A DNA stretch of 43,779 nucleotides, taken from the IMG/VR virus record IMGVR_UViG_3300033149_003707, positions 1-43,779 of that record; one strand, 5' to 3'. This document shows, piece after piece, positions 1 to 42,574 of the stretch. Below the pieces are notes generated by a model that was not told where the DNA came from, did not search any database, and worked only from the letters and a program-made list of their open reading frames with translations. Made by a program: the position numbers and the translations under genes. Numbering within the stretch: position 1 is the stretch's first letter; each line of letters begins with the position of its first letter. The stretch is from a virus.

Positions 1-114
1 CTTTAGGTGGTCTCATTGGTGGCTTGTTTGGCAAGAAAGAGAAGAAGACAGAAGAACAACGCCAGGCTGAAGAAATGGAGATGATGGTTGATGATATTAG
101 TAAGGCTATGTCCA
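1..114. repeat. Terminal direct repeat, left copy (circular joint)
   Basis: Bases 1-114 are identical to 43666-43779. The repeat lies within a continuous reading frame of the tape measure, so it is best read as the overlap left by assembling a circular or circularly permuted molecule rather than as a biological terminal repeat. Confidence 0.95.
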
Positions 115-9283: not shown

Positions 9284-10285
9284 ATGGTAAAAAAAGATAA
9301 AAATGTATCCTGGAGTGAAATCCAAACATGGTCCACCTGTAGGCAAAAATGGTTCTGGGCTTATGATGTAGGTATTGTTCCCAAAAAAATTGAACGTGCA
9401 CCATCTGTAGGGTCGTGTGGACATGTTGCGATTGCAGCTGTTTTACGTGGTGAAGATTGGATGCAAGCTGTGGATGGTTGGTTGAAACGGGAACTTAATA
9501 GAAGGCCGCTTTTTGATGAAGAAAAAGAAGAAATCCAGGCAATAGCAGACCTTATCCGGAACATTATACCTCGGTATTTAGATCATTATCATGATGATTT
9601 CAAACCGGTATTAGTTGAACATGGATTTGAAATACCGATTCGTGGTATTAAAATTCGGCTTATTGGTTATTGGGATGCTGTCGTACAAGGTAAAGATGGA
9701 CACTTGTGGTTATTGGAACATAAATTTCCGCAGACAAAATTTCGTACCGAGGAACAATTAGATTTGGATGGACAAATTGGTACTTATCAATATGCTGCTC
9801 ATCGTTTAGGCTTTTCAATCGTTGGAACGATATATAATCAAATTCTCAGTCGTCTTCCAGCCGTTCCTAAAATTAATAAAGATGGCAGTGTATCTAAGGC
9901 CACAATTTATACCGACTGGCAGACTTATCGTAATTTTATTATTGAACAGGGATTAGATCCGAGTGATTATCAAGAGATGGAGGGAAAATTAGCTGATTTT
10001 AAATTCTTCCAACGCAACTATATTTACCGTCCAAAAGCTGAAATTCGAGCATTTGCACGGGATATGGAACGACGAATATGGGATATGCGAAAAAGTAAGA
10101 AACACATCTACCGGAACGAATCTTTTATTACTTGTGGAAGATGTCCTTATCGAGAATTATGCCTGGAATCTTTGAAAGGAGGTGACATTAATTACATTAT
10201 TGAAAACCAATTCGAACCAAAAATTTCAAGAGAGGAGGTAAAATCAAATGGTAAAAAAACAAATAAATTTAACCCCAAAGCCTAA
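9284..10285 (+). CDS. PD-(D/E)XK nuclease, RecB/Cas4-like, 333 aa
   Basis: Putative Fe-S-containing RecB-family exonuclease. An N-terminal SWSEIQTWSTCRQKWFW motif (residues about 9-23) is the typical opening of this family, with Cys19. The nuclease core shows an acidic strand GYWDAV (about 127-132) followed by LLEHKF (about 142-147), the D...ExK signature. A C-terminal CGRCPYRELC cluster (about 283-292) with the N-terminal Cys could hold a 4Fe-4S cluster. The gene lies directly before the Sak4-like ATPase and the SSB-like gene, so it likely resects DNA in phage recombination or replication. The 3' end overlaps the next gene by 38 bases. Confidence 0.82.
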   Translation: MVKKDKNVSWSEIQTWSTCRQKWFWAYDVGIVPKKIERAPSVGSCGHVAIAAVLRGEDWMQAVDGWLKRELNRRPLFDEEKEEIQAIADLIRNIIPRYLDHYHDDFKPVLVEHGFEIPIRGIKIRLIGYWDAVVQGKDGHLWLLEHKFPQTKFRTEEQLDLDGQIGTYQYAAHRLGFSIVGTIYNQILSRLPAVPKINKDGSVSKATIYTDWQTYRNFIIEQGLDPSDYQEMEGKLADFKFFQRNYIYRPKAEIRAFARDMERRIWDMRKSKKHIYRNESFITCGRCPYRELCLESLKGGDINYIIENQFEPKISREEVKSNGKKTNKFNPKA

Positions 10286-11123
10286 AGATATTAAAATGGA
10301 AAAGAACAGTGAACAATCCCAAACACCGATTACAGAACCGACGGATTCAACAACACCCACAATTTATAAACCCCATATCAAAGAATACAAATTGAAAATG
10401 ATGATTTATGGTCCTCCAGGAGTGGGAAAAACTTCTTTACTAGCCACGGCCGAACTACATAAACTCACAGCACCAATATTGCTGATCAATGTTGAAGGAG
10501 GTATGCTCAGTGTAGCTGATTCCAACATTCTCGGTTTAAAAGAACCGCCTGATGTGGTTGATTTAAATAATTTTGAAGAATTAGAATCAATATTCTGGTA
10601 CCTAGCAAAAGGCGATCATCCTTACAAATCTGTTGGTATTGATTCTCTATCCGAATTGCAAATGATTAATTTGGAAGGCATTATTAAGAAATTGGTAGGT
10701 AAAGTCAGTGGGTCTGGAGCGAAACGAGAATCATTGGATGATATCTGGCGGGAAGATTACGGGACTAGTACGCAACAATTACGACGTGTGGTACGCCGAT
10801 TTCGTGATCTACCCATGCACGTATTCTTTTCTTGTCATGACGCAACATCTCAGGACAAAGACAGAAATGAAATTATCCACCCCATGTTGACCCCCAAGCT
10901 GCGATCTGCTATTATGGGATATATGGACGCTATAGGATATATGTATGTAGATTCTGAGGCTGCTGAAGAAACCAAAGAGAATGAAGATCAAACACCTAGG
11001 CGGTTATTATGCCGTCCATTCGGTAAATGGGTGGCGAAAGACCGAAGTCCAGGACAACGTTTGGGATTGGTCATTGAGAATCCAACCGTGCCAATCATTA
11101 TTAATCGAATTTTAGGAAAATAA
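10248..11123 (+). CDS. Sak4-like RecA-fold ATPase (phage recombinase), 291 aa
   Basis: Walker A is GPPGVGKTS at about residues 55-63. Walker B-like SVGIDSLSEL lies near 129-138, followed by a sensor-like HVFFSCHD strand. This compact RecA-core layout matches phage nucleotide-binding/Sak4 proteins, which anneal single-stranded DNA together with a phage SSB. Residues 1-45 are a polar, probably disordered extension rich in Pro/Thr. The start follows AGAGGAGGTAAAATCAA inside the end of the nuclease gene. The next gene encodes an SSB-like protein, supporting a recombination role. Confidence 0.8.
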   Translation: MVKKQINLTPKPKDIKMEKNSEQSQTPITEPTDSTTPTIYKPHIKEYKLKMMIYGPPGVGKTSLLATAELHKLTAPILLINVEGGMLSVADSNILGLKEPPDVVDLNNFEELESIFWYLAKGDHPYKSVGIDSLSELQMINLEGIIKKLVGKVSGSGAKRESLDDIWREDYGTSTQQLRRVVRRFRDLPMHVFFSCHDATSQDKDRNEIIHPMLTPKLRSAIMGYMDAIGYMYVDSEAAEETKENEDQTPRRLLCRPFGKWVAKDRSPGQRLGLVIENPTVPIIINRILGK

Positions 11124-11133
11124 AGGAGGAAAT

Positions 11134-11682
11134 ATGTCAAAACAACAATTACCATCAACCAGAAAGAGAAAAACCACAAGCACTCTAAAAAAACCCACAG
11201 ATTATTTACCGCAGAGCAAAGAAGAATTGGGATTGGATGAGTCCGCAGATTCACCAATAGTTGATGAGGAGATTTTTGAGGAAGATTTTACCGATATTGA
11301 AGATGAATTTCCTATAGCAGAGGAAGGCCGACATCATGCAAAAGTTATTGATTTCGAAAAAACTGAAAGCCAAACTGGAAATCCACAGTATGTCTGGCAG
11401 TTTCGCATTACTGCTGGTAAATCGAAAGATATTGAACTCAGGTATTGGACAAGTCTGTTACCACAGGCCCGTTGGAAAGCTGTTGAAACTCTAACTGCTA
11501 TCGGTATCGAAGCTGCAGGAAGTATTGCTCGATTTCGTAAAAGTGATATTTTGGGCAAACCTTGCATTATTGAAGTCTTTCATGATGTTTTTGAAGGACG
11601 TACCCAGCACAAAATACGAAAAATATATCCACCTGATCAGAATAGCACCAAGCTTGCTGAGAAAGATGAAGTACCGTTCTAA
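11134..11682 (+). CDS. SSB-like single-stranded-DNA-binding protein, 182 aa
   Basis: Residues 1-60 are polar and acidic. Residues about 65-165 are OB-fold-like (HHAKVIDFEKTESQTGNPQYVWQF...IELRYWTSL), resembling the phage DUF669/SSB-like group. The extreme C terminus KDEVPF resembles the acidic-Pro-Phe tip that bacterial SSB uses to recruit partners. AAAGGAGG lies upstream. Placement after the Sak4-like gene and before the polymerase supports the role. Specific family membership is an inference from pattern. Confidence 0.68.
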   Translation: MSKQQLPSTRKRKTTSTLKKPTDYLPQSKEELGLDESADSPIVDEEIFEEDFTDIEDEFPIAEEGRHHAKVIDFEKTESQTGNPQYVWQFRITAGKSKDIELRYWTSLLPQARWKAVETLTAIGIEAAGSIARFRKSDILGKPCIIEVFHDVFEGRTQHKIRKIYPPDQNSTKLAEKDEVPF

Positions 11683-11786: not shown

Positions 11787-11813
11787 GCGATTTGCTAAAA
11801 AGTGAGGTATGAA

Positions 11814-13583
11814 ATGCTAATTCAAACAGAAGATGAATATAATATATTATTGGAAAAAATAAGGAATGGTCCAGCAATGACCGTATATGACTTAGAAACA
11901 ACCGGATTAGAACCATTTAAACAAGATAGACTTATCGGCATAGCTATACTAATACCAAATATGACTGGTAAAACTGAAGGAGAATCTTTTTACGTACCGT
12001 TTAGGCACACGGATTTATTTGGTAGAAATCTTCCTATTAAAAATTTACATCGTTTAGCCCCATATTTTTTAGATCCAAACCGATCATTGATTGGGTTTAA
12101 TCTTAAATTCGATGTCCATTTTACTGAAATAGAAGGGATAGCAGTACGTAATCAACTTATAGACGTCATGCTAGCAGCACATTTAGCTAATGAAAATGAA
12201 ATGAGTTTCCAATTAAAACATCTGGGGATAAAATATATAAATTCTGACGCAAACAAAGCTGAAAAGAACTTATCGCAAGCACTAAAAGCTCGAAAACTCA
12301 GAAAGAAAGATATGCAGCAATTATTGCCGGAAGAAGTAGCCCCGTATGCTGAACAGGATGTACGTTTAACATGGCAGTTGAAAAGATTTTACCATCAAAA
12401 TCTAAGAGCACAAAATATTCTTCATTTGTGGCCAGATGTCAATAAATATTCGGCAGCCACCATAGCTATGGAACGACGGGGCGTATTGGTGGATTCAAAA
12501 AGTTGCATGCGAAATTTAACTTTAGCACATAAACATCGAGCTGAATTATATGAAAAAATGAAGGCTATGGTAGGTAGAGATTTTAACCCCGACAGCGTAC
12601 CGCAATTACGTGAGATATTAAAACAGCAAGCAACCGATAAGAAGGCCTTAGCTGAGTCAAACCATCCTATAGCCCCCTTGCTCATACAAAGTCGAGCCTG
12701 GGGTAAAGCAGCGAATACATTTTATCAGAAATTCTTAGATTCAATGGATGAAAACTGCCGCATACACCCAAACTTAGTTTTACATGGCACTATATCGGGT
12801 AGGTTGTCGTGCTGGAGTCCAAATTTACAGGCTCTGCCTAAAAGAAGCAACAGCATTTATAGAGTTCGGGATTTAATCATAGCCCCGCCAAGCCATGTGC
12901 TTATGAGTTGGGATTGGTCCCAGGCAGAATTACGACTTTTAGCACATTATACGAAAGACCCATTTCTATTAAATGCTTTTCGACAAGGGAAAGATATACA
13001 TTATGAAATATCGACCATGTTAGGTATACCAAGAGAGCGAGGGAAACGGCTTAGCTTGGGTATTGTTTATGGTATCGGTGCTTATTCTTTATCCAAGGAA
13101 TTAGGTATAACAATAGCAAAAGCTGAGGAACATTTAAATCATTATCATCATATAATTCCTGGTGTTCGTAAATTATATCATGCTGTCCAACGTGTAGCTG
13201 AGAGAGATCGTAAAATATCGATGTGGACAGGACGCTTACGGCATTATAGGGAAGAAGATGAAACTCATAAAGCTCTGTCGAATTTAATTCAAGGCGGTGT
13301 TGCAGAAATGATGAGGGTGGTTATTACTCGTCTACACGATCTAATGAAAAGTACTGACGCATTTATGCTCTTGCAGATCCACGATGAAATATTATTTGAA
13401 ATTCCAAAGAGAGAAGAAAAAGATTGGGCCGTAGAAATAAAACGAATCATGGAGGATTTTGACTTCGCTGTACCTATTGTAGCAGAGGGTAGAATGGGTC
13501 ATTCCTGGAGCATGGATGATATGCAACCTATCAAATTAGACAGTAGAGGTTATCCTATTATTCCAAAGTTAAAAAGGGGATAG
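11814..13583 (+). CDS. Family A DNA polymerase (PolA-type; DpoZ candidate), 589 aa
   Basis: Replicative polymerase with proofreading and no 5'-3' exonuclease domain. Exonuclease motifs are YDLETTG (Asp26, Glu28), GFNLKFD and YAEQDVRLTWQL. Polymerase motif A is DWSQAELRLLAH (about 366-377). The O-helix is R407...K411...L415-G...Y419, matching E. coli Pol I R754, K758, F762 and Y766, so the 762-equivalent is leucine. Motif C is QIHDEI (about 523-528). The loop before the O-helix is about nine residues shorter than in E. coli Pol I. The ATG at 11814 with GTGAGG upstream is preferred to GTG at 11802. Direct adjacency to the PurZ-like gene fits the DpoZ polymerases of Z-DNA phages, but sequence alone does not prove Z preference. 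Confidence 0.88.
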   Translation: MLIQTEDEYNILLEKIRNGPAMTVYDLETTGLEPFKQDRLIGIAILIPNMTGKTEGESFYVPFRHTDLFGRNLPIKNLHRLAPYFLDPNRSLIGFNLKFDVHFTEIEGIAVRNQLIDVMLAAHLANENEMSFQLKHLGIKYINSDANKAEKNLSQALKARKLRKKDMQQLLPEEVAPYAEQDVRLTWQLKRFYHQNLRAQNILHLWPDVNKYSAATIAMERRGVLVDSKSCMRNLTLAHKHRAELYEKMKAMVGRDFNPDSVPQLREILKQQATDKKALAESNHPIAPLLIQSRAWGKAANTFYQKFLDSMDENCRIHPNLVLHGTISGRLSCWSPNLQALPKRSNSIYRVRDLIIAPPSHVLMSWDWSQAELRLLAHYTKDPFLLNAFRQGKDIHYEISTMLGIPRERGKRLSLGIVYGIGAYSLSKELGITIAKAEEHLNHYHHIIPGVRKLYHAVQRVAERDRKISMWTGRLRHYREEDETHKALSNLIQGGVAEMMRVVITRLHDLMKSTDAFMLLQIHDEILFEIPKREEKDWAVEIKRIMEDFDFAVPIVAEGRMGHSWSMDDMQPIKLDSRGYPIIPKLKRG

Positions 13584-13585
13584 AC

Positions 13586-13615
13586 TTGACAGTATTGAAT
13601 ATGGTAATATACAAT
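13586..13615 (+). promoter_or_regulatory. Sigma-70 promoter of the PurZ-like gene
   Basis: TTGACA at 13586-13591 and TACAAT at 13610-13615 (5 of 6 to consensus) are separated by 18 bp, the same spacing as at 7645. The -35 again reads ACTTGACA. The predicted start at about 13622 is the first base of stem 1 of leader copy B. The -35 begins three bases after the polymerase stop codon. Confidence 0.8.
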
Positions 13616-13621
13616 GAGATC

Positions 13622-13734
13622 ATGGACCGGAACAATGGAATCGATAAATAAAGCCCTGGTGTTTATAGTCTATCCCTCTGACCGTCCAGGTCATCCGGTT
13701 CATCAGATGAAAGCACTGGGGCTTATTTTCTTTT
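13622..13734 (+). ncRNA. Structured leader RNA, copy B (purZ-like leader)
   Basis: Stem 1 pairs 13622-13630 with 13695-13703 (9 bp, one G-U). A hairpin at 13679-13693 has 5 bp and loop GUCCA. Stem 2 pairs 13651-13661 with 13714-13724 (11 bp, two G-U) and is followed by the U-rich ATTTTCTTTT. The arms interleave as in copy A. Stem sequences differ from copy A but pairing is kept. The hairpin loop (GUCC) and the linker CAGATGAAAG (13704-13713; CAGATTAAAG in copy A) are conserved. The ribosome-binding site AAGGAGG (13736-13742) lies directly after the U run. This is covariation-supported evidence for a cis-regulatory RNA controlling the PurZ-like gene. Confidence 0.75.
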
Positions 13735-13748
13735 AAAGGAGGTTTTAA

Positions 13749-14792
13749 ATGGAAAGTTTCATTGACATCGTCTGCGGTGGTTTTTATGGGGATGAAGGAA
13801 AAGGGCAGATCTGTGCTTGGTTAGCTCATAAGCAAATATTACAAGGAGCACCTTATAATTTTGCTGTAAGAGTAGGAGGATCAAATGCTGAACATAGGTT
13901 TGAATTACCTAATGGCGTGAGGTACACAGGTAGAGTGCTTCCGGTGGCTGGTTGGGTGGACCCAAAGATTAAACTTGTCCTCGGAGCAGGTCACATGATT
14001 AAATTGGAAAGTCTTTTTCGTGAAATAAAAGAACTTGAATCCATGTACGGTAAACAACGTGACCGCATTTTCATCGATCCTCAAGCAGGAGTAATTGATC
14101 CTGCTCATATAGAAGCGGGAAAAGAGGCGGCAACGTTCCGTGGATCGACCCATCAGGGTACTGGACAAGCTGTAGCTCACAAAGTTGTTCGAGACGGCAA
14201 ATTTAAGACAGCCCGAGATTATTCGGAACTTCGTAATTATGTTTGTGAGGATACTGTCATGCTCATGAATACTTGGATGCGAAAGGGAGAAATAGGATTA
14301 CTGGAAGGTTCTCAAGGTGCTTTCCTGTCTCTAAATCATGGTTATTACCCATATTGCACATCAAAAGATGTTACTCCAGCAGCACTGCTTGCAGAGGCGG
14401 GCATTTCAACTCGTCGTGTTCGCCATATTTGGGCTGTTTTCAAGGCCGTACCTACGAGAGTACCCGGAAACTCTGGTCCGGCGGATGGACGGGAACTTTC
14501 CTGGGAAGAATTGGAGAAGGCGATTGGTAAACAAATTCCTGAAGATACCAAACGTCAAACCGATTCTGGAGACAGAGAACGTATATTTCTGTGGTCTTGG
14601 AAAGAATTCATGAAATCCATAAATCTTATCGGGCCGACCCATATGGCTCTTACTTTTATTGATTGGTGGCCCACGTCATTAATGGGGTCTCTTCCAGATG
14701 ATTTAATTAAGGATATGGAACGTCTGGCTGGATGTTCGGTAAACATTGTACGTAATGGTCCAGCTTGGGGAGACTATTATATTCCCAAATAG
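13749..14792 (+). CDS. purZ: Adenylosuccinate-synthetase-family enzyme, PurZ/PurZ0-like, 347 aa
   Basis: The P-loop is GDEGKGQ (14-20). GGSNAEHR (43-50) corresponds to the GG-NAGH motif of PurA with Glu in place of Gly and catalytic His49 kept. GSTHQGTG (132-139) matches the IMP/phosphate loop. EGSQGAFLSLNHGYYPYCTS (186-205) is the strongest family signature. TFID (302-305) aligns with the guanine-specifying TKLD of PurA. Length matches archaeal PurA and phage PurZ (about 340-370), not bacterial PurA (about 430). Phage PurZ converts dGMP and aspartate toward 2-aminoadenine nucleotides. Asp15 is retained here; my recollection is that characterised PurZ has Ser at this position, so a PurZ0-like or PurA-like activity is possible. 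No MazZ or DatZ gene is seen. The gene has its own promoter, leader RNA and an AAGGAGG site. Confidence 0.78.
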   Translation: MESFIDIVCGGFYGDEGKGQICAWLAHKQILQGAPYNFAVRVGGSNAEHRFELPNGVRYTGRVLPVAGWVDPKIKLVLGAGHMIKLESLFREIKELESMYGKQRDRIFIDPQAGVIDPAHIEAGKEAATFRGSTHQGTGQAVAHKVVRDGKFKTARDYSELRNYVCEDTVMLMNTWMRKGEIGLLEGSQGAFLSLNHGYYPYCTSKDVTPAALLAEAGISTRRVRHIWAVFKAVPTRVPGNSGPADGRELSWEELEKAIGKQIPEDTKRQTDSGDRERIFLWSWKEFMKSINLIGPTHMALTFIDWWPTSLMGSLPDDLIKDMERLAGCSVNIVRNGPAWGDYYIPK

Positions 14793-18250: not shown

Positions 18251-18473
18251 AAATATACTCTTAGAAAAGCTAAGGGATTGGAGATGGGCTGTACAACATG
18301 GGCATACTAAAAGAAGAGATTTTCGTAATTGGCATGATGATGATGAACAAGCTTACCAACAAATCCGTCAGCTAATAGAGGTTTGTTACGGATGTGATTA
18401 TTTTCAGGATGACACAGAATTATATAAATCAGAAGCAGAAGTAAAGGCAGGAGTAAGAATAAAAGAAAAATGA
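18234..18473 (+). CDS. DEQAYQQI-family small protein 3, 79 aa
   Basis: The start at 18234 lies within the end of the previous gene and has AAGGA upstream. The pattern LLEKLRDWRWAV then WHDDDEQAYQQIRQLIE matches the proteins at 17054 and 17751 closely, so recent tandem duplication is likely. A CYGC knuckle follows at about 50-53. Overlaps the methyltransferase start by four bases. Confidence 0.55.
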   Translation: MKEPGKNILLEKLRDWRWAVQHGHTKRRDFRNWHDDDEQAYQQIRQLIEVCYGCDYFQDDTELYKSEAEVKAGVRIKEK

Positions 18474-19627
18474 GCCTTGAGCGAAATGATTTTATTAATA
18501 AGATAATTCATGGAGACTGTCTTAACATTATGAAAGAAATGCCTGAGAATTCTATTGATGCAATCGTTACTGACCCCCCGTATGGTTTGTCGTTTATGAA
18601 TAAAGATTGGGATAAATTAAACAAGCATATTTCTCCATTGCCCGAAGGAAAATATCCTAAAAATAAAAATCTTAAGGAAATGAGACAAGGTGGATCAGAT
18701 GGCTATTTAATACAGCTTTGGCATGCTCAATGGCTTAAAGAAGCCTACCAAATCCTAAAACCAGGTGGGTCAATGCTGATCATGGGTGGTACAAGGACTT
18801 TTCACAGGCTTATGTGTGCTATAGAGGATACGGGCTTTATTATCAAAGACACTTTAATGTGGCTATATGGGGGTGGATTTCCAAAAGCACAAGATTTAAC
18901 AAATATGCTTAAGAAGAGAGGTATAGAAACTAATAAATGGCAAGGTTTTAAAATTGGCGGTATTAAGCCAGCTTTCGAGCCGATAGTCTGGGCAGTTAGG
19001 CCCCCAAAGGGTTCTTATATTGACAATGTATTAAAATGGGAGGTAGGTGCGGTTAATGTGGATAAATGTAGGATTGTGACTAATGATAAACTGGTAAGAC
19101 CAAATATATCCCGAGGGAAAAATGAAGCAATTTTCCCACTTGGTGCAGGCATCCAGAATGAACCCAAAGGCCGTTTTCCTGCAAATATTATTTTAGATGA
19201 GGAGGCTGGTAGATTATTAGATGAGCAGAGTGGAATATTGAAGAGTGGGGACTTAACGGGGCAACCAAGAGTAGAAAATAAGAATGTTTATGGAAAGGCT
19301 GGAGCGACTATAGGAAATCCACGTTATTGGCAAGGAGATTCAGGTGGTGCTTCACGTTTCTTCTATTGTGCTAAAGCTTCTAAATCTGAAAGGGGTAAAA
19401 ACAATAAACATCCTACCGTAAAACCTATAAAACTTTTTAAGTGGCTGATAAAACTTGTAACCAGAGAAGGACAGGTCGTTCTTGACCCCTTTATCGGCTC
19501 TGGCACGACTGCTATTGCCGCTTATAGAGTTGGCCGTAAATATATCGGTATAGAAAGAGAAAAAGAATACATAAAGATAGCTGAAGAACGACTTGCTCAG
19601 GGAGTGTTATGGAGTGAAATGGCTTGA
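18470..19627 (+). CDS. DNA methyltransferase 1 (N4/N6, beta-type order), 385 aa
   Basis: SAM-dependent DNA amino-methyltransferase. Catalytic motif IV DPPYG is at about residues 36-40, preceded by IIHGDCLNIM. The SAM-binding motif DPFIGSGTT lies near 339-347, followed by KYIGIE, so the catalytic motif precedes the SAM motif. The insert of about 200 residues between them probably holds target recognition. First of three tandem methyltransferase genes whose N- and C-terminal segments are related. Target sequence and base are unknown. It could protect phage DNA from host restriction. Confidence 0.88.
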   Translation: MSLERNDFINKIIHGDCLNIMKEMPENSIDAIVTDPPYGLSFMNKDWDKLNKHISPLPEGKYPKNKNLKEMRQGGSDGYLIQLWHAQWLKEAYQILKPGGSMLIMGGTRTFHRLMCAIEDTGFIIKDTLMWLYGGGFPKAQDLTNMLKKRGIETNKWQGFKIGGIKPAFEPIVWAVRPPKGSYIDNVLKWEVGAVNVDKCRIVTNDKLVRPNISRGKNEAIFPLGAGIQNEPKGRFPANIILDEEAGRLLDEQSGILKSGDLTGQPRVENKNVYGKAGATIGNPRYWQGDSGGASRFFYCAKASKSERGKNNKHPTVKPIKLFKWLIKLVTREGQVVLDPFIGSGTTAIAAYRVGRKYIGIEREKEYIKIAEERLAQGVLWSEMA

Positions 19628-20702
19628 CGATTTTATTAATAAGATAATTTGCGGCGATTGTTTGGAGGTGATGAGGAAAATGCCCGATGAGTGTGTAGAT
19701 ATGGTTCTAACAAGTCCTCCTTACTGGGGTCTCAGGGATTATGGTATCCAACAAATATTTGGTGGAAATAAAGATTGTAAGCATGAATGGGGGGATGAGA
19801 TAAAAAGAATAAATTCTGGCGGAAGAGGATATAAACAAGATACCAATAAAGGCTCATTTTTTATAAACAAACAATGTATATGCCAAAAATGCGGAGCGTG
19901 GAGAGGCCAACTTGGGCTTGAGCCAACGCCAGAGATGTATATTAAGCACCTCACTAACATCTTTAACGAAGTTAAGCGAGTGCTGAAGAAGGAAGGGACG
20001 CTGTGGTTGAATATTGGGGATACTTATGGGGGATCAGGTGGCGATCACAAAGAATGGCATAAGAATGATGCTGGATTTCAGGGAGGATTAATGAGGGGTT
20101 GTCAACTAAAAAAGTTAATGCCTAAATGTCTCCTGATGATTCCAGAACGGCTGGCATGGTCATTAATTCAAGACGGCTGGATTCTTAGAAATAAAATCAT
20201 CTGGCATAAGCCCAATGCAATGCCTTCATCAGTTAAAGATAGATTTAGTAATAAATGGGAGTATCTATTTCTATTTTCTAAAAATAAAAAATATTACTTT
20301 GATTTAGATTTGATAAGAGAGCCTTATATAAAGCCATTGAACAGATGGGGCGGCGATAAATTAATAGCTAAAGGTAAATCTACGTGGGACGAAGCGACTG
20401 GACAGACAACTTATCGTAATAGGGATATGAGGCCAAATGCGCTTGGTAAGAATCCAGGTGATATATGGATGATTAATACACAACCCTTCCCTAAGGCTCA
20501 TTTTGCTGTATTTCCTGAAAAACTATGCGAAAAACCGATAAAAGCCGGCTGCCCAGAGGGCGGGATAGTTCTTGACCCGTTCTGTGGGTCCGGGACGGCA
20601 TTATTCGTGGCTCAACAATTAAAGCGTTGGTACATCGGCATAGAAATGAACCCGGAATACTGTAAAATAGCTGAAAAACGATTGGCTCAGGGGGTATTGT
20701 GA
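19614..20702 (+). CDS. DNA methyltransferase 2 (TSPPYW type), 362 aa
   Basis: The GTG start at 19614 is chosen because it aligns exactly with the MKW-DDFINKIICGDC start of the next methyltransferase. The longer TTG form is unlikely. Motif IV is TSPPYWG (about 34-40), a form often found in N4-cytosine enzymes but also in some N6-adenine enzymes. The SAM motif DPFCGSGTA is near 321-329. Residues about 50-100 carry a CxxC pair (CICQKCGAW) and an upstream Cys, probably a zinc-stabilised insert. Overlaps the previous gene by 14 bases and ends one base before the next. Confidence 0.88.
   Translation: MKWLDDFINKIICGDCLEVMRKMPDECVDMVLTSPPYWGLRDYGIQQIFGGNKDCKHEWGDEIKRINSGGRGYKQDTNKGSFFINKQCICQKCGAWRGQLGLEPTPEMYIKHLTNIFNEVKRVLKKEGTLWLNIGDTYGGSGGDHKEWHKNDAGFQGGLMRGCQLKKLMPKCLLMIPERLAWSLIQDGWILRNKIIWHKPNAMPSSVKDRFSNKWEYLFLFSKNKKYYFDLDLIREPYIKPLNRWGGDKLIAKGKSTWDEATGQTTYRNRDMRPNALGKNPGDIWMINTQPFPKAHFAVFPEKLCEKPIKAGCPEGGIVLDPFCGSGTALFVAQQLKRWYIGIEMNPEYCKIAEKRLAQGVL
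19617..19697 (+). repeat. 81-bp direct repeat, copy 1 (methyltransferase 5' ends)
   Basis: Bases 19617-19697 and 20707-20787 are nearly identical in phase, covering the same 27 codons of two tandem methyltransferase genes. They are a homologous-recombination substrate that could delete or expand the array. Confidence 0.85.
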
Positions 20703-20703
20703 A

Positions 20704-21414
20704 ATGAAATGGCCTGACGATTTTATTAACAAGATAATTTGTGGGGATTGTTTGGAGGTGATGAGGAAAATGCCCGATAAGTGTGTAAATTTAATTATAA
20801 TAGACCCGCCCTATGGAATATCTGGATATGCCCAAAAAGAAATTACCCACCCAGGAAGAAAGAAGCCAATAAATCTTTATTTTGGAGATTGGGATAAATT
20901 TGAAGATTTTAGATTATTAATAAATGAAAGCACAAGAATTTTAAAGAGAAATGGAACTATTTATATTTTTGTAAGTTATCGTATTTTTGGAACTGTATTT
21001 GATCTTCTAGATAAAAGATTTAAAAGAGTAAGTCTTTTCGTGTGGCATAAACCAAATCCTGCAATACAAATTTCAAAGACCTCTTACCTTTCAAGTTGTG
21101 AATTAATTTTATGGGCACATAACGAAAAACATACTTTTAATTTCACAAACCAAAGAGAAATGCATAATTTTTGGGAGGGAACTTATCCCATGGGAAAAAA
21201 TAGATGGAAACATCCTACGGCAAAACCTTACAACTTAATCAGTCATTTTATTAAAGTTTCCTCCAATGAAGGCGATATTATTCTTGACCCAATGATGGGT
21301 TCTGGGGTTGTGTTACGAGTTGCTAAAGATTTATATCGTAATTTTGTTGGCATAGAAATGAATCCAGAATACTGCAAGATAGCCGAGGAACGGCTGGCCC
21401 AGAAGGTATTATAA
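20704..21414 (+). CDS. DNA methyltransferase 3 (short), 236 aa
   Basis: The smallest of the trio. DPPYGIS (about 33-39) is motif IV and DPMMGSGV (about 195-202) the SAM-binding motif, followed by FVGIEMNPEYCKIAEERLAQ. The recognition insert is short. The first 27 codons are nearly identical at DNA level to those of the gene at 19614, and the last 20 codons closely resemble both upstream genes, so it arose by tandem duplication with replacement of the central part. Confidence 0.86.
   Translation: MKWPDDFINKIICGDCLEVMRKMPDKCVNLIIIDPPYGISGYAQKEITHPGRKKPINLYFGDWDKFEDFRLLINESTRILKRNGTIYIFVSYRIFGTVFDLLDKRFKRVSLFVWHKPNPAIQISKTSYLSSCELILWAHNEKHTFNFTNQREMHNFWEGTYPMGKNRWKHPTAKPYNLISHFIKVSSNEGDIILDPMMGSGVVLRVAKDLYRNFVGIEMNPEYCKIAEERLAQKVL
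20707..20787 (+). repeat. 81-bp direct repeat, copy 2 (methyltransferase 5' ends)
   Basis: Second copy of the repeat at 19617-19697, with a few mostly third-position differences, indicating a recent duplication under coding constraint. Confidence 0.85.
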
Positions 21415-23332: not shown

Positions 23333-23659
23333 ATGAGCAATCCAGCATGGAAAAAATATGAGAGAAGAATCGCTGCAGCACTTGGAGGCCGGAGAGTTAG
23401 AGCAGGAGAACTGGAACAAGAAGACGTAGAACACAGTCTTTTATCAATCGAAGTAAAATTACTAAAAAACCTACCTAAAGGATTGACTAATCCCTATAAA
23501 CAAGCTAAAAGAAATGCGCCGAAAGGCAAAATACCTATCGTAATAATGAAAGAGAAAAAAAGATTTGACGACAACGCCCTGGTTTTCCTGAGATTTAAAG
23601 ATTTTAAACGTCTTATGACCCCAATTATAGGAAAGAGCGGACAGGTTAAGGATGCCTGA
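23333..23659 (+). CDS. PD-(D/E)XK / Holliday-junction-resolvase-like nuclease, 108 aa
   Basis: The order AWKKYERRIAAALGGRRVRAG, then a D/E-rich segment (QEDVEHSLLSIEVKLLK, with EVK as the ExK part), then KIPIVIMKEKKRFDDN is typical of small PD-(D/E)XK nucleases such as archaeal-type Hjc/phage resolvases and VRR-NUC domains. The acidic residue ahead of EVK is in the expected place. AAAGGAGAAGAA precedes the ATG. Overlap with the primase-helicase gene supports a replication or resolution role. Confidence 0.62.
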   Translation: MSNPAWKKYERRIAAALGGRRVRAGELEQEDVEHSLLSIEVKLLKNLPKGLTNPYKQAKRNAPKGKIPIVIMKEKKRFDDNALVFLRFKDFKRLMTPIIGKSGQVKDA

Positions 23660-25346
23660 AAAAAATAATCAAACACTTAAAAATGCGTTATATTATTTAA
23701 ACCTTGGATGGAGCATAATACCCGTAAAGAACAAAAAACCTTTACTCTCAAGCTGGAAGGAATATCAAAAACGACGAGCAACCGAAAGTGAAATACGGAA
23801 ATGGTGGCGGAAATGGCCTAATGCCGACATTGCCGTTGTAACAGGTACTGTGTCCGGGATCATTGTGGTTGATGTTGACAATGCAGCCGGGGAGCATGCT
23901 ATAAAACCATATGTGGGGAAATCCGTCCTGACTGCAACTACGCCTAGAGGAGGCAAACATTATTATTTCAAACATCCAGGTACAATAGTGCCTAATGCGG
24001 TGCGATTTTTGCCCGGCGTCGATGCACGTGGAGACGGTGGATATGTAGTCATATATAACTGGGATAATGATAGGAGTGCCGAAATAGCTGCACCGCCCCC
24101 AGCACTTCTTGAACTTATTACGAAACGTACTACCACGCCAGTAAAATGGAATACTAATATACCAGAAGGTGAACGTGATATAAGTCTAACAAAATTAGTG
24201 GGACGGCTTTTCCATACCGGCATGTCAATCAACGAAGTAATTGTTCTGGCCAACGCTATAAACACCGCATATTGTAAACCCCCACTTGAAACAAAACAAG
24301 TTCGAAAAATTGTATATTCCATAGCTAAAAGAGAAATCAGGAAATCTACAGATGAACAGAAAAAAGAATTTAAAACCCTTACAACCACAGAAATGCTAAG
24401 ACGTTACGGAGAAGACGAAACACAATGGATTATAGACGGTTGGTTACCCGAAGCCTCATGTGGACTAATCGTTGCACCTCCAGGCTCATATAAAACATGG
24501 GTATTGGAAGCACTGGCCTTTGCTATCGCAACAGGTTATCCATTTCTTGGACAATATCCGATAATGAAGCACGGACCCATTCTTTTCATTCAACAGGAAG
24601 ATCCATTCTCAATGATAATGAAACGGATTGCCTGTATGTTCAAACAACAAATGCCGACGGAAAAAGAAATAAACGGAGATATGGAATATGTATTAGACTG
24701 TAGCTTCATACATGAACTTGATACAATGCCCATCCACTGGCACGTAGACCGTGAACTTAATTTAGAAGATAAAAACTGTATGACTAGATTCGAAACTAAA
24801 ATTGCAGAACTGAAACCTATTCTTACAATAATCGATCCCCTTTACTCTGGGGTTTCAGCTAAAGACTATATGGCTCTTGGAGCACAAGCTATGCTTTTTC
24901 TTAAAAAACTACGTGATAAATATAATACCGGCTTTGCTATCGCTCACCATACAACAGTGGCCGGCAGTAGGACCGAGGATAGGGCATCTATATGGGGAAG
25001 CCAATTCTTGAACGCATGGACGGAATGGGGATGGCAAATAAGAGAAACCGACGACAAAAATACCGTAAGAGTAATGAGACACTTTAAGAGCAGCGAAAAC
25101 CCCAAACGTCTACATGTAAAATTTACAATTACAAATTTCAGTTTCAATGTAGAAATAAACGATGTCCTGGTATCCGTACCTGAACGTATAAAAGAGATAA
25201 TGCTTAATGGAGAACGCTTTCGCAGCGTGAGAGAGATTGCAGAAGTAATAGGATGCAGTAAATCCATGGCTGCGAAAACAATTACAAAAATGGGTATAGA
25301 GAAAGATCAAGAAGGATATTACAAACTATTGGACAGGGAACAATGA
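23652..25346 (+). CDS. Primase-polymerase / RepA-like helicase fusion, 564 aa
   Basis: N-terminal Prim-Pol (AEP) domain, about residues 8-175: NLGWSIIPVKNKKPL, catalytic VVDVDN (about 73-78), RGGKHYYF with its His (about 99-106) and GVDARGDGGYVV. The C-terminal P-loop ATPase, about 240-490, has APPGSYKT (about 275-282) as Walker A and LTIIDPLYSG (about 391-400) as Walker B, followed by the AIAHHT strand of RSF1010 RepA-type hexameric helicases. Residues about 520-560 form a helix-turn-helix (VREIAEVIGCSKSMAAKTI). One protein thus primes and unwinds. The iteron region begins four bases after its stop. Confidence 0.87.
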   Translation: MPEKNNQTLKNALYYLNLGWSIIPVKNKKPLLSSWKEYQKRRATESEIRKWWRKWPNADIAVVTGTVSGIIVVDVDNAAGEHAIKPYVGKSVLTATTPRGGKHYYFKHPGTIVPNAVRFLPGVDARGDGGYVVIYNWDNDRSAEIAAPPPALLELITKRTTTPVKWNTNIPEGERDISLTKLVGRLFHTGMSINEVIVLANAINTAYCKPPLETKQVRKIVYSIAKREIRKSTDEQKKEFKTLTTTEMLRRYGEDETQWIIDGWLPEASCGLIVAPPGSYKTWVLEALAFAIATGYPFLGQYPIMKHGPILFIQQEDPFSMIMKRIACMFKQQMPTEKEINGDMEYVLDCSFIHELDTMPIHWHVDRELNLEDKNCMTRFETKIAELKPILTIIDPLYSGVSAKDYMALGAQAMLFLKKLRDKYNTGFAIAHHTTVAGSRTEDRASIWGSQFLNAWTEWGWQIRETDDKNTVRVMRHFKSSENPKRLHVKFTITNFSFNVEINDVLVSVPERIKEIMLNGERFRSVREIAEVIGCSKSMAAKTITKMGIEKDQEGYYKLLDREQ

Positions 25347-33050: not shown

Positions 33051-33401
33051 ATGAATAAACAAGGTAAAGTTTGGGGAGAGACGGAAGAGATTTTTAACGA
33101 TGGTAGAGTCTCTATCCATTATCTCTGGATCAGGAAAGGAGGTTATTGTTCAGAACACAAACATTCAAAAAAATCGAATTTGTTCTATATTATCAACGGG
33201 CAGCTTGAGATATCTATCTGGAGGGAAAAGGGCGTGGATAAAACGATTATAGGTGATGGGGAAAGCTCCTTTGTTCCTCCTGATGTATATCACAAATTCA
33301 GGGCGATTCGTGACACGGAATGTATAGAAATTTACGAGGTTAAACTTGAACCTAATGATATAGACCGGCGAACAATTGGAGGTATTAAGTGGAACAGGTG
33401 A
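33051..33401 (+). CDS. Cupin-domain protein (sugar-isomerase type), 116 aa
   Basis: Single cupin barrel. Motif 1 is GGYCSEHKHSKKSNLFYIINGQLEI (residues about 28-52), with His32 and His34 and the NG turn. Motif 2 is GDGESSFVPPDVYHKFRAI with a third His. This is the metal-binding cupin of the type in mannose-6-phosphate isomerase C-terminal domains and related sugar-handling proteins. It opens a glycan-related cassette and overlaps the next gene by 13 bases. AAAAGGAAAAG precedes the ATG. Substrate unknown. Confidence 0.78.
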   Translation: MNKQGKVWGETEEIFNDGRVSIHYLWIRKGGYCSEHKHSKKSNLFYIINGQLEISIWREKGVDKTIIGDGESSFVPPDVYHKFRAIRDTECIEIYEVKLEPNDIDRRTIGGIKWNR

Positions 33402-35695
33402 TAACTACCAGAAATCGAAATATTAAACATATTTTAGAACAAAAAGAGCAGCAACAAAGAGAAAATGTGCAAAAGACACGAAAAATTATAACACAGATGA
33501 TAACTACACGTGATACGGCAGTAAATAGAATAGTTGAAAAAAAGAGCAAGCAAGATGAATATCGCAGGATTTGGGCCGAACTAAGAAAGAAGAAATTCGG
33601 GGCCATACCTGGTTATTTTCCTTATACTCAAGAAGTAAATAGACATTTTTCAGAAGTACTTGAAGATGGGGCATGGAAAGGCCATCGATGTTTCATTATC
33701 GGTGGCGGCGAGAGTCTCAAAGGATTCGATTTCTCAAAGCTTAATGGTGAACTTATTATTGGGGTGAATAGGGCTTATGAGAAAGTCGATTGTTCAATTA
33801 TGTTTGCAATGGATTATGAATTTTATAAATGGATAGTTAGAGGCAAACTGGGCCAAAAAGCAAAAGAGAAGTTCGATAATTTCAAAGGCTATAAAGTCTG
33901 GGTTGATTCAGCAAAATATTCATATCTGAAAGATATTTTTCTCTTGAATTGTATCGGTACTGATGGATTCTCGTGGTCCTTAAAAGATGGGTTGGCCAGT
34001 GGCTGCAATTCTGGCTATGCGGCTTTGAACTTAGCTGTGTGTCTAGGTGCTAATCCTATTTATTTGTTGGGTTTTGACATGAGAGGGGGACATTGGCATA
34101 CCGAATATCCTGATAAGCAACCTGAATCCGTTTATAAGAAATTCAAAATATATTTTGAGAAGATTGCACCCGAATTGAAACAAAAAGGAATCAAAGTCAT
34201 AAACCTCAATCCAAATAGCACCTTAAGGTGCTTTGAATTCGGCAAGTTTGAGGATATCAGGCGGGAGACAATAACGGCGATAACACCGACAGGAGATAGA
34301 CCATTAGCATTTGCCCTATGTCAGCAGTGGATGAGGCATCAGACGAGGCAGCCAGACCAATGGATTGTTGTAGATGATGGCAAAAAGCCCATGAAACCAT
34401 CTATGCTGATGCAATATGTGAGAAGAGAACCGCAACCTAGCGACCCCAAACATACACTCATCCTTAATCTTAAGAAAGCGATGCCGCTTATAAATGGCGA
34501 TAAGATTATGATTATAGAAGATGATGAGTATTATGCACCTGAATATATAGCGAAGATGGCACTTGGACTTGATCGATATGAGGTTGTAGGTATTGGAAAG
34601 AGCAAGTATTATCACCTGCCTTCGGGCGGTTATTTTAAGATTGGGAATACCACTCATGCCTCTCTTGCAGAGACGGGTTTCAGGAGTTCCTTTCTACCAG
34701 AATTTAAAGCTCTTTTAGACAGAAATAATGTTTATCTAGATTTTGATTTATGGAAAAAGATTAGTAAAAAAGGACGAGGATTTATTTTTTTAGATGATGA
34801 TAGAAATCCCCTCTATGTCGGTATGAAGGGGCTTCCCGGAAGGACTGGAATAGGCAGAGGTCATGATCCGACATTTTATAAAAAATATCCTCAAGATAAA
34901 GACAGGGCAGTCCTCAAGAAGTGGATACCTAAGGATTATAATATTTATATGGATGTACTTAATAAGAAGTTGACAGATAATAATTATCAACTATATTTTC
35001 CTGATATAACCGGAATAACTGTCTGTTATAACACAAAGGATTTAATAGAGCGGGCTTACAATTCAGTCCGTAAATTTCATCCTTATATGCCTATTATTAT
35101 TATCGATGGGTCTGATCCAAAAGACCCGTGTGCTTCTTATATTAAAAGCCTATCGTCTAATCTGACCACTGTTATTTCTCTCGGATATAATATCGGTCAT
35201 GGTAAGGGTATGGTAATGGGGATAAATAATGCTAAAACAAAGTATGCTCTTATTTTTGATTCCGATATAGAGATGCTGAAATCCCCTGTTCAGGCCATGT
35301 TGGAGATGATGGAAGAGGACACATTCGGGGTCGGCTTCATACAAAAAGTTGGGATGGATGGTTATGATTATGGAGTTAAGCCTGAACATAAAGGACAGGA
35401 ATGGATGCTATATTTACATCCTTATTTTCAATTAATAAATATCGAGAATTATAGGAAATTTCACCCCTATGTTCATCATGGTGCACCCTGTTATTTGACA
35501 ATGCGAGACATTTATAAACGGGGATTATCAAATAAGATATTAAAGGAATTTCCTGGCCTCGGCCATTCGGCTAGTCAGGGCTATGGTTGGAAAGGGAAAC
35601 CGAAGGAATATATAAGACATGATACTCGTGGTACTCGCATTGTACGTAAAAAGAAAAATCTTAATGAAATAGAACAAGGATGGGTCTATAAATGA
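33389..35695 (+). CDS. Multidomain glycosyltransferase (DUF115 + two GT-A domains), 768 aa
   Basis: GTG start with GGAGG six bases upstream. Residues about 1-75 are a charged coiled coil. About 97-290 is a DUF115/MptE-like nucleotide-sugar fold (HRCFIIGGGESLKGFDFS, YLLGFDMRGGHW). About 295-500 is a GT-A-like domain with IMIIEDDEYY (about 375-384, DxD-like). About 540-705 is a GT2-like domain with YALIFDSDIEML (about 619-630, DSD motif) and an IGHGKGMVMGI stretch. It likely transfers sugars to a virion protein or host glycan. Linking three sugar-transfer domains in one protein is unusual for a phage of this size. Neighbours are a cupin, more glycosyltransferases and a sulfotransferase. Confidence 0.8.
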   Translation: MEQVITTRNRNIKHILEQKEQQQRENVQKTRKIITQMITTRDTAVNRIVEKKSKQDEYRRIWAELRKKKFGAIPGYFPYTQEVNRHFSEVLEDGAWKGHRCFIIGGGESLKGFDFSKLNGELIIGVNRAYEKVDCSIMFAMDYEFYKWIVRGKLGQKAKEKFDNFKGYKVWVDSAKYSYLKDIFLLNCIGTDGFSWSLKDGLASGCNSGYAALNLAVCLGANPIYLLGFDMRGGHWHTEYPDKQPESVYKKFKIYFEKIAPELKQKGIKVINLNPNSTLRCFEFGKFEDIRRETITAITPTGDRPLAFALCQQWMRHQTRQPDQWIVVDDGKKPMKPSMLMQYVRREPQPSDPKHTLILNLKKAMPLINGDKIMIIEDDEYYAPEYIAKMALGLDRYEVVGIGKSKYYHLPSGGYFKIGNTTHASLAETGFRSSFLPEFKALLDRNNVYLDFDLWKKISKKGRGFIFLDDDRNPLYVGMKGLPGRTGIGRGHDPTFYKKYPQDKDRAVLKKWIPKDYNIYMDVLNKKLTDNNYQLYFPDITGITVCYNTKDLIERAYNSVRKFHPYMPIIIIDGSDPKDPCASYIKSLSSNLTTVISLGYNIGHGKGMVMGINNAKTKYALIFDSDIEMLKSPVQAMLEMMEEDTFGVGFIQKVGMDGYDYGVKPEHKGQEWMLYLHPYFQLINIENYRKFHPYVHHGAPCYLTMRDIYKRGLSNKILKEFPGLGHSASQGYGWKGKPKEYIRHDTRGTRIVRKKKNLNEIEQGWVYK

Positions 35696-36270
35696 AAACT
35701 ATCGCTTTTATTACCCGTGTCCATCCTAAGCGGCCGAATATGCTTAAAAAGTGTATAGAATCTATCAAGATGCAAACAAGCAATGATTATATCCATATTC
35801 TTCATCGGGATGACAAGACTTCTGAAGGCTATGGCGTGGCCTCTGCTAATCGCTCATTAACAAAAATAAAAGATATAGATGCTGAATATGCAATGATTCT
35901 TGATGATGATGATATACTTATTGATTCAGAATTTGTTGAGACATTCAGGAAGAAGATTAATAGAAAAAAACCAGAGATTATATTTTTCAAGGGAATAATA
36001 AATGGTGTTGGCGTATTCCCAAGACCGGAGGTCTGGAAAGCAGCTCCTAAATTTGCTATGATAGCTTCGTTTTGTCTTGCGGTTCGGCGTGATGTCTGGA
36101 TGGCAAATATCTATGAATTTGGCAGGCCTACGCTGGCTGGACTTGGTGGTGATTTTAGTTTTATTTCTTCATGTTATAAGAATACGAAAAACCATTTCTG
36201 GTGGGATCGAGTAGTGGCAAGGACACAGAAGGGACCGGGAAGAGGAAAGGGGGAACGTGATCATGCCTAA
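35692..36270 (+). CDS. Glycosyltransferase family 2-like, 192 aa
   Basis: Begins MKTIAFITRVHPKRPNMLKKCIESI, the typical opening of GT2 domains. AMILDDDDILID (about 67-78) is the DxD metal/nucleotide-sugar motif. GDFSFIS later provides the acceptor-side acidic residue. Short (192 residues), lacking membrane segments. ATGA overlap with the preceding gene. Substrate unknown. Confidence 0.82.
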   Translation: MKTIAFITRVHPKRPNMLKKCIESIKMQTSNDYIHILHRDDKTSEGYGVASANRSLTKIKDIDAEYAMILDDDDILIDSEFVETFRKKINRKKPEIIFFKGIINGVGVFPRPEVWKAAPKFAMIASFCLAVRRDVWMANIYEFGRPTLAGLGGDFSFISSCYKNTKNHFWWDRVVARTQKGPGRGKGERDHA

Positions 36271-36901
36271 AGTGTCGGTTGTGATTGTAACTTACAGGCG
36301 AAAGGCTAATTTGGGAAAAATTATCTCTGCCTGGTTAAATGAAACTTCTAATGTCTGGCTATGCGATTGCTCAAAAGAGGGTATGCGTTATTCTGATATC
36401 AATTATGTATATTGTTATCCTGATCCTGGAAATAAAATCCGTCATGCTGTAGCCCTGTTGACTAGAGGCGATTATGTAATAAAGACTGATGATGATCTTT
36501 TACCCAAGCCAGGACTTATAAATGATTTTCTCAGAAATAGGGATAAAGGTGGAATCCTGGGGATACATGGCAGAAAATTCAATGGCGAAAGTTATTATAG
36601 AAATACAAAAGCTCTTGAGGGAAAGGAGATAAAAGAAATAACCGAGGTCGATTTTGTCGGGATTTGTACATTTACACCGAGAGACAATTTAGCCTTTGAT
36701 CTTAGAGGATGTAAAAGTCCGATTGAAGATTTGTTTTGGCAAATGAAAGCTTTCCCACATATCAGGAAATGGGTTATTTCCACAAAGAATTATGAGAAAT
36801 TGCCAGAGAGCAATGATGAAGAATGTCTTTTCTTCAATAAAAAAGCGAGGCAGATAAGAGAGGCGTTTTACAATAAATATTATTTGAGGAACTATAGATG
36901 A
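36263..36901 (+). CDS. Glycosyltransferase family 2-like, 212 aa
   Basis: The ATG at 36263 is nine bases after AAAGGGGG; a GTG at 36257 is too close. MPKVSVVIVTYRRKANL is a canonical GT2 N terminus. YVIKTDDDLLPKPGLI (about 74-89) contains the DDD motif. FVGICTFTPRDNLAF and IEDLFWQMKA complete the acceptor half. It overlaps the previous gene by eight bases and the next by four. Likely acts in sequence with its neighbours on the same glycan. Confidence 0.85.
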   Translation: MPKVSVVIVTYRRKANLGKIISAWLNETSNVWLCDCSKEGMRYSDINYVYCYPDPGNKIRHAVALLTRGDYVIKTDDDLLPKPGLINDFLRNRDKGGILGIHGRKFNGESYYRNTKALEGKEIKEITEVDFVGICTFTPRDNLAFDLRGCKSPIEDLFWQMKAFPHIRKWVISTKNYEKLPESNDEECLFFNKKARQIREAFYNKYYLRNYR

Positions 36902-37482
36902 GAAATTTTGCTATAACTGCTATGGGACGATCGGGGACAAAATTCCTTGCTGAAAACATGAATAAGTCTAAGAAATGGACGGTAACAGTCCCAGAAATAC
37001 AGAAACGATTTAATCGGGATTTTTACGGTGAAGTTAATAGTTATCTGAGATTTATAATAGATAAGATAGAATGCGAAAAGAAAGGAATTATTCTAAGAAA
37101 CCCCATAGATCTCTGGCTATCCATTACCTCCTGGCATAGCCAGGAAAGATGGGCTAGTATTCTCAAGAAAAAATGGAATCAGGATTTCAGAGACATTCAA
37201 AAAGCCATTCCTCATCTTCTGAATCTGGTAGAATCAGGAAATTATCATGTCATCTCATTCAGGCGAATGACAACAGATTTAGGATATTTGCGGAATATTT
37301 TTGAATATTTTGGAGTTGATAATGTTGAGGTTGACGAGAAGATGTTGACTACGAAGGTAAACGCAGCCCCTGAAAGGTTGAGAACATCATGGGAGGATTT
37401 TGATCATGAAATCAGAGCGAAAATAATGAGGCTAAATGATGAGTATCTCAGGAGAACAGAAAAGATATTTATGAGGGATTAA
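36898..37482 (+). CDS. Sulfotransferase-like protein, 194 aa
   Basis: AITAMGRSGTKFLAENM (residues 5-21) matches the 5'-phosphosulfate-binding loop of sulfotransferases (RSGTTFL-type). IILRNPIDLWLSITSWH (64-80), with Arg67 and Ser75 eight residues apart, matches the 3'-phosphate-binding motif (RxPxxxxxS). These are the two PAPS-binding hallmarks. The protein is about 60-70 residues shorter than classical enzymes. Together with the glycosyltransferases it may sulfate a glycan. A different phosphate-ester P-loop enzyme is the alternative. Confidence 0.72.
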   Translation: MRNFAITAMGRSGTKFLAENMNKSKKWTVTVPEIQKRFNRDFYGEVNSYLRFIIDKIECEKKGIILRNPIDLWLSITSWHSQERWASILKKKWNQDFRDIQKAIPHLLNLVESGNYHVISFRRMTTDLGYLRNIFEYFGVDNVEVDEKMLTTKVNAAPERLRTSWEDFDHEIRAKIMRLNDEYLRRTEKIFMRD

Positions 37483-41486: not shown

Positions 41487-41942
41487 ATGGCATGGGAAGT
41501 TGGAGCAATAGTTGCAAAGCTAAACCTTCAAAAAGATCAATGGGATGCGGCCATAAAAAAAGTTAAAGCTGATCAAAAAAGCTTTTCTGGGTTCGTCCTG
41601 AAAAATAGCCAGCAAATCAAAACATTGGGAAGAAATCTAACCATTGCTGGTGGCATTATGGTTGGCTTCGGCGTGGGTGCAATAAAAGCGTTTGCCAATT
41701 TTGACAAAGCTATGACGGAATCCCTCGCTATTATGGGAGATGTCTCTGATAGCATGCGTAGAAAAATGACAGATGCTGCTAAAGAGATGTCCACGCAGAC
41801 TGTTTATTCTGCTAAAGAATTGGCTCAGGCATATTTCTTTCTTGCTTCTGCGGGGATGGATGCCGCTCAATCAATCGGCGCATTACCCACGGTTGCCAAA
41901 TTATTAGAGTCTCCGATGTGTTGGTGGGTGCTAATACCTTAG
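41487..41942 (+). pseudogene. Tape measure, N-terminal fragment
   Basis: AAGGAGGACAAA precedes the ATG. The sequence VGAIVAKLNLQKDQWDAAIKKVKADQKSFSG, GAIKAFANFDKAMTESLAIMGDVSD and TVYSAKELAQAYFFLASAGMDAAQSIGALPTVAKLL is the classic N terminus of TP901-type tape measures. At about 41900-41906 the frame changes. In the homologs I recall, about 30-35 residues (an AQAGMFDM...DLATDAQSALG-like segment) lie between AKLL and RVSDVLV, and are absent here. Confidence 0.8.
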
Positions 41943-42574
41943 CAAACGCTTCGGTTAAACAATTTGCTGAATCCCTAACAAATAAAGCGGCTGCCGCATT
42001 GATTAATGTTAATAAAAGCATGGAAGAAGGCGTTGCTGTTTTAGCCGCCTATGCTGATAAAGGTATAAAAGGACAACTTGCTGGACAACGATTAACCATG
42101 ATGCTGAATGGTCTTTTCGATGCATCTCAAAGGAATAAAAAAGCATGGGATGATTTCGGGGTTTCTCTTTTCGATTCAAACGGAGAAATGAGAGATATTG
42201 CTGATATCATTGGTGATTTGGAAATTAAATTTGCGGGCATGACTACCGAACAGAAACAGGCTACCCTTGCAACGTTAGGATTCAATATGAGGACGAAGGA
42301 TTCCATTTTAACACTAATGGGTTCTTCAGAGAAAATCAGACAATGGACAAAAGATTTAAAAAATATGGGCGGTATCACTAATGAAGTGTCTGAGAAGCAA
42401 TTACGAGCATTATCGAATCAATTGAAATTGGCAAAAAATAATCTTGTGAATGCAGCTATATCAATTGGAGAGACGCTTGCTCCAGCTATCATAAATTTAA
42501 CGGAGGAAATTAAAAGTGTTCTGGGAAAAACTACGGAATGGATAAAAGAACGCTTGGAATTGGACTTCTCATGA
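41900..42574 (+). pseudogene. Tape measure, second fragment (frame -1)
   Basis: This frame resumes with RVSDVLVGANTLANASVKQFAE, ALTNKA-like TNKAAAALINVNK and EEGVAVLAAYADKGIKG, the natural continuation of the tape-measure core. It runs to EWIKER, after which the frame ends at 42574. It is not a separate gene: the apparent GTG start at 41918 lies inside a conserved motif. Confidence 0.8.

Follow-up and report, generated by a model that had tools for sequence, protein, structure and literature searches.

The synthase gene and its phylogenetic position

The window analyzed here comprises all 43,779 nucleotides of the IMG/VR virus record IMGVR_UViG_3300033149_003707, and the exact 114-bp direct repeat shared by its two ends marks it as a complete phage genome of ~43.7 kb. 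Our subject is a gene of the adenylosuccinate synthetase family, hereafter the synthase, which forms an intact open reading frame (ORF) with a strong Shine–Dalgarno sequence (AAAGGAGG) ahead of its ATG (Table 1). A preliminary description had proposed a 347-residue protein of this family just downstream of a family A polymerase with proofreading and without a 5' nuclease domain. Both the family and the arrangement were confirmed, given the intact ORF, the match to Pfam PF00709 (E-value 7e-37), the match to PHROG 1211 (a PurZ family), and a gap of 165 bp between the two genes. The NCBIfam models of archaeal PurA (NF003295; 203 bits, cutoff 368) and PurZ (NF038379; 167.9 bits, cutoff 300) were both matched below their cutoffs.

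Genome scans of IMG/VR and GTDB retrieved 16 relatives with 37–63% identity to the window synthase (13 on viral contigs and three on contigs from Spirochaetaceae, Syntrophomonadaceae, and Eisenbacteria bins), which together with the window constitute a clade of 17 members. This clade was monophyletic (support 100/99) and grouped with PurZ and PurZ0 (98/95), with archaeal PurA outside; the grouping was kept when the diagnostic columns were removed (98/90) and exhibited a Shimodaira–Hasegawa-like approximate likelihood ratio (SH-aLRT) support of 100 in a 119-row tree including 66 further viral homologs. The relationship to PurZ suggested in the preliminary description was therefore recovered in a phylogeny comprising PurA, PurZ, and PurZ0, but its wording of an archaeal-PurA-like or PurZ0-like intermediate did not hold, given the outside position of archaeal PurA and the proximity of the clade to ATP-type PurZ in dense trees.

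In the first tree (54 rows) the clade was sister to PurZ plus PurZ0, and under denser sampling it tends to nest, with moderate support, within the enzymes bearing Ser at the catalytic position (Ser-type), beside ATP-type PurZ; such nesting implies that Asp15 of the window synthase may be a reversal. Monophyly of the Ser-type enzymes, which places the clade outside all of them, had p = 0.18 in the approximately unbiased (AU) test, in which the nested position was also not rejected. The union of the clade with archaeal PurA was weakly disfavored by the same test with the diagnostic columns removed (p = 0.09 with 51 rows and p = 0.04 with 53 rows). Judging from these sequences, the clade likely unites with the phage Z-synthases (succino-aminodeoxyadenylate synthases; Z, 2-aminoadenine), as sister or nested, rather than with archaeal PurA, and most likely forms a third line within the viral PurZ family, next to PurZ and PurZ0. 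It was not delimited in the literature searched, which did not include the 2023 paper that reportedly defined PurZ0.

In the broader family, proteins related to the PurZ-family alignment were found in at least 545 viral stretches; the 66 that were read were all Ser-type and included lineages beyond PurZ and PurZ0. One Ser-type PurZ-like protein (GSEGKG), which forms a basal branch of ATP-type PurZ, is encoded by Bacillus phage vB_BpsS-140 (L006:9962–11083) upstream of adk and dut.

Active-site residues and the loss of the aspartate loop

Active-site residues are numbered as in Escherichia coli with Met as 1, so that Arg305 of the literature (without Met) corresponds to Arg306. In the alignment, the clade retains the catalytic Asp14 and His42, the nucleoside monophosphate (NMP) ligands Thr130, Arg144, Gln225, and Thr240, and the GTP-recognizing Asp334. 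The Asp15 in GDEGKG and the GTP-type Asp in TFID (Asp305, equivalent to E. coli Asp334) that had been read in the preliminary description are both present in the window synthase. The catalytic Asp was found in all 16 clade members spanning the position, the 17th being a fragment without that site, whereas Ser occupies it in 81/81 PurZ-family proteins compared (15 reference and 66 further viral rows) and in 100% of 147 phage sequences (PMC12884076).

The 81 PurZ-family proteins also conserve Gly-His at 41–42, where the clade reads AEHR, together with the Arg-Arg aspartate loop. Three changes were exclusive to the clade and each present in 17/17 members, namely Gly41 to Glu, Thr43 to Arg, and Arg306 to Glu, whereas the non-clade rows conserve Gly41 (37/37) and literature Arg305 (36/37, the remaining one being a gap). 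None of the 66 further viral homologs exhibited AEHR, and all of them bear Ser14 and the Arg-Arg pair. The aspartate-loop sequence of the window is QTDSGDRER instead of TTxT..RR, and across the clade residues 300–306 comprise either a QTDSG-type or a longer unrelated sequence, varying in length and composition even among subclades. The tip of this loop, TTVT, contacts aspartate in PurZ, and R303/R305 bind aspartate in PurA (PMC8342488); the equivalent Arg294/Arg296 of Helicobacter pylori hold a sulphate (PMC11571797). As read from the alignment, the most telling feature of the clade, absent from the preliminary description, is the disappearance of the loop that binds aspartate, with Glu in place of its invariant Arg. 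Since the residues for O6 activation and GTP binding are kept while this loop is lost, activation of O6 by GTP appears intact, and L-Asp would either have a new mode of binding or play no part.

The predicted enzyme fails two defining features of PurZ, Ser14 and the aspartate loop, and for this reason the names PurZ and PurZ0 are not appropriate for it, although it may well function like them. With PurZ0 (Arthrobacter phage Wayne and Gordonia phage Ghobes; PDB 7vf6 is a PurZ0) it shares the GTP-type Asp, the linkage to PolA, and an RVxGNSGP insertion (RVPGNSGP in the window) that is common to the clade and PurZ0 and not found in PurA. In S-2L PurZ, the insertion found here draws Val241 closer to C2', which is held to explain deoxy-selectivity (PMC8342488). 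PurZ0 differs in bearing Ser for Asp14, NAGH, and the TTVT..RR loop. The PurZ of phiVC8 (PDB 6fm1, 6tnh) has a similar fold and ~33% identity to the window synthase, and with that of S-2L (7odx) it exhibits a similar RRxF/ERxF context; both differ in being ATP-type (Asn/Gln for the GTP Asp), in their Ser and intact aspartate loop, and in their DatZ/MazZ neighbors. Archaeal PurA (Pyrococcus horikoshii; PDB 2d7u, 5k7x) resembles the window protein in length, catalytic Asp, GTP Asp, and fold, but has no NSGP insertion, conserves the TVTGRxRR loop, and occupies a separate branch. The AlphaFold2 model of the protein, based on the 17-row alignment (predicted local distance difference test 89, predicted template modeling score 0.89), was closest to phiVC8 PurZ (Z-score 40.4) and Pyrococcus PurA (40.3), a tie, so that fold comparison with the PDB does not separate PurZ from PurA.

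Two rival explanations bear directly on these residues. The protein could be a PurA-like booster making adenylosuccinate from IMP or dIMP and thus raising adenine nucleotides, as suggested by the retained catalytic Asp (D15) and GTP Asp (D305) and by archaeal PurA being its top NCBIfam match, though below cutoff; the L-aspartate site of PurA (TxTGRxRR) is nevertheless absent, and this loss, the deoxy-type insertion, and the grouping with Z-synthases render this explanation improbable. Alternatively, the radical change at the otherwise invariant G41, T43, and R305 might reflect neofunctionalization into a protein no longer making DNA precursors, such as a nucleotide sensor or a counter-defense enzyme. 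We consider this improbable in view of the NMP- and GTP-binding residues, all conserved across diverged sequences, and of the linkage to polA and nucleotide-pool genes.

Nucleotide-pool genes, polymerase, and genomic neighborhood

In PurZ0 phages, DutZ, DUF5664, and DmtZ remove dATP and dAMP and supply the synthesis of the Z monophosphate dZMP (PMC12884076). A hidden Markov model (HMM) built from the DmtZ of Ghobes and Wayne alone detected NDT/DmtZ genes near the synthase in eight clade loci, and a wider HMM including clade sequences added a weak ninth (L037); 9/17 clade loci thus compare with 0/77 archaeal purA loci carrying DmtZ (Fisher 2e-8). Aligned with the two DmtZ sequences, seven clade proteins kept the NDT domain and the equivalents of Asn77, Glu103, and Pro57, with the Asp12 equivalent missing in L031 and L043, and the NDT-family proteins of the relatives appear to be homologs of DmtZ, a dAMP hydrolase/transferase in PurZ0 phages. 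L023, of which L033 is a longer copy, encodes an NDT–dUTPase fusion comparable to DmtZ-DutZ of Wayne; the full-length phage matches of this fusion, among the matches listed, were all Arthrobacter and Streptomyces phages of PurZ0 groups. The NDT of L027 had three matches in 50,697 phage records, all of them in the PurZ0-carrying Streptomyces phages Spocter and Hiyaa. Dut and NDT are separate genes in L022 and L043, L021 encodes a Dut, and L003 a DUF5664-type dATP/dGTP diphosphohydrolase. Given that genes of these types are known to serve dZMP synthesis in PurZ0 phages, their presence in the relatives links the clade to a Z economy; it also argues against the adenine-boosting explanation, as their products remove dATP/dAMP in those phages (PMC12884076).

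A large ribonucleotide-reductase-type gene lies downstream of Prim-Pol in three relatives (L028:11734–14043, L026:12849–14693, and L042:3455–6610), and was confirmed by Pfam in L003 (= L028).

In 13 loci (the window and 12 relatives), a polA homolog precedes the synthase gene, either immediately or with a few intervening genes; in L033 the distance is ~5 kb. The polymerase and synthase trees of these 13 loci were correlated (Mantel r = 0.63, p = 1e-4), which is consistent with co-inheritance and also with general phage phylogeny. In a small PolA tree, the polymerases of L031, L033, and L043 grouped with Wayne DpoZ, probably a sampling effect, since their best tblastn matches were non-Z phage PolA. 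At the position of the helix-O Phe (E. coli F762), the window PolA has Leu, like phiVC8 (L455); as the relatives have no Leu there, we give this residue no weight. The leader separating polA from the synthase gene, possibly an attenuator, had a fold z-score of just −1.3 and produced no match in the Rfam search for known riboswitches or RNA families.

Beyond these genes, the window encodes three N6_N4-type methylases, a Terminase_3 packaging module, and the replication and recombination genes listed in Table 1. The methylase genes, in tandem at 18470–21414, have N-terminal repeats in common (72–183 nt, 71–80% DNA identity) and apparently arose by duplication. Within the structural genes, a glycosyltransferase-like block (a 768-aa GT2 and two smaller GT2-like proteins) with a sulfotransferase-like ORF at 33389–37482 possibly serves virion decoration. 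The tape-measure-like frame (41487–43386 and 24–1709) is split into overlapping ORFs (41487–41942, 41918–42574, and 42538–43386), reflecting either sequencing frameshifts or genuine breaks.

Table 1. Coordinates of the synthase gene, its neighbors, and the terminal repeats in the window
Feature	Position	Strand	Remarks
Terminal direct repeat, copy 1	1–114		Identical to 43666–43779
PD-(D/E)XK exonuclease	9284–10285	+	Replication/recombination module
Sak4-like ATPase	10248–11123	+	Conserved upstream neighbor
DUF669 protein	11134–11682	+	Conserved upstream neighbor
Family A DNA polymerase (3'-5' exonuclease and polymerase)	11802–13583	+	Directly upstream of the synthase gene
Leader between polA and synthase gene	13586–13748	+	TTGACA promoter-like; 14-bp stem 13651–13664/13711–13724; U-rich run; then AAAGGAGG
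PurZ-family protein, Asp-type clade	13749–14792	+	347 aa; D15, E48-H49-R50, R131, P239, N241–P244 (NSGP) insertion, Q270–G274 (QTDSG), E277, D305
Prim-Pol and AAA primase-helicase	23652–25346	+	Common to 8 relatives
Terminal direct repeat, copy 2	43666–43779		Identical to 1–114

Proposed reaction and its implications

Taken together, we see an about even chance that the clade constitutes a divergent lineage of Z-synthases, which would catalyze the GTP-driven amination of C6 in a deoxypurine monophosphate, with L-Asp probably not bound in the usual way and the base reaching DNA via PolA. The synthase would bind a deoxypurine 5'-monophosphate, presumably with dGMP favored, and GTP would activate O6 as in PurA and PurZ, as the conserved residues suggest, yielding a 6-phosphoryl intermediate. 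An amine, presumably other than canonically bound L-Asp, would then displace the phosphate, with 2-aminoadenine monophosphate or an N6-substituted form of it as the product; ammonia would fit an acidic site. Host kinases would make the triphosphate, and the neighboring PolA would incorporate the product base in place of some or all of the adenine. The version in which dGMP or another deoxypurine monophosphate is aminated with GTP and a non-aspartate amine is tentative, and we hold it possible but rather doubtful.

Much of the same evidence fits an ordinary Z-synthase converting dGMP, L-Asp, and GTP into dSMP, which host PurB would turn into dZMP, because phylogenetic group, insertion, and partner genes are in common with Z-synthases. 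L-Asp would then be held by other residues, for instance R50 (E. coli T43R) replacing R305, and the T43R and R305E charge changes could offset each other. The aspartate loop and its Arg pair are, however, kept in PurZ, PurZ0, and PurA, yet lost in 17/17 clade members, and the new loop varies between subclades, which makes this explanation unlikely.

Several observations weigh against the proposed divergent Z-synthase lineage, some of them against complete replacement of adenine. Ser14, present in all characterized PurZ, was not found in the clade. The window PolA fails the NCBIfam models of DpoZ, the PolA that incorporates aminoadenine (203.9 bits for DpoZ_1, cutoff 500; 38.9 bits for DpoZ_2, cutoff 350), a further difference from PurZ0 phages, and the relatives' polymerases were also below these cutoffs, with Wayne scoring 1144.7 bits as a control. 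In three relatives (L020, L002, and L041; L026:8439–8999, L027:4632–5186, and L041:1365–2039), an MT-A70 adenine-N6 methylase gene is found next to the synthase gene or at a short distance from it; like the N6_N4 methylases of the window, this would be odd if all adenine were replaced. Finally, DmtZ, DutZ, DUF5664, DatZ, and MazZ were all absent from the window with the HMMs used and with Pfam on small ORFs, in agreement with the preliminary description for MazZ and DatZ; the DmtZ/DutZ partners of Wayne and Ghobes are thus matched in its relatives and not in the window itself. The terminal repeat rules out a truncated contig as the cause. In the window phage, which has no known dATP-removing partner, a Z genome would accordingly be one in which adenine may be substituted just partly, or which depends on unrecognized genes.

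To date, Z-DNA synthesis has been described as the work of one enzyme type, the aspartate-using Ser-type PurZ/PurZ0. If the divergent lineage proposed here indeed aminates deoxypurine monophosphates, the use of ammonia would produce 2-aminoadenine in a single step, with no need for the host's adenylosuccinate lyase, and a larger amine would yield a DNA base not yet described. The DmtZ/DutZ kit in the clade suggests that removal of dATP by such enzymes predates PurZ0 or is the more mobile of the two. A deep branch of this kind, with its amino-donor site rebuilt and members recurring among uncultured phages, would add to the routes by which DNA alphabets are known to be altered.
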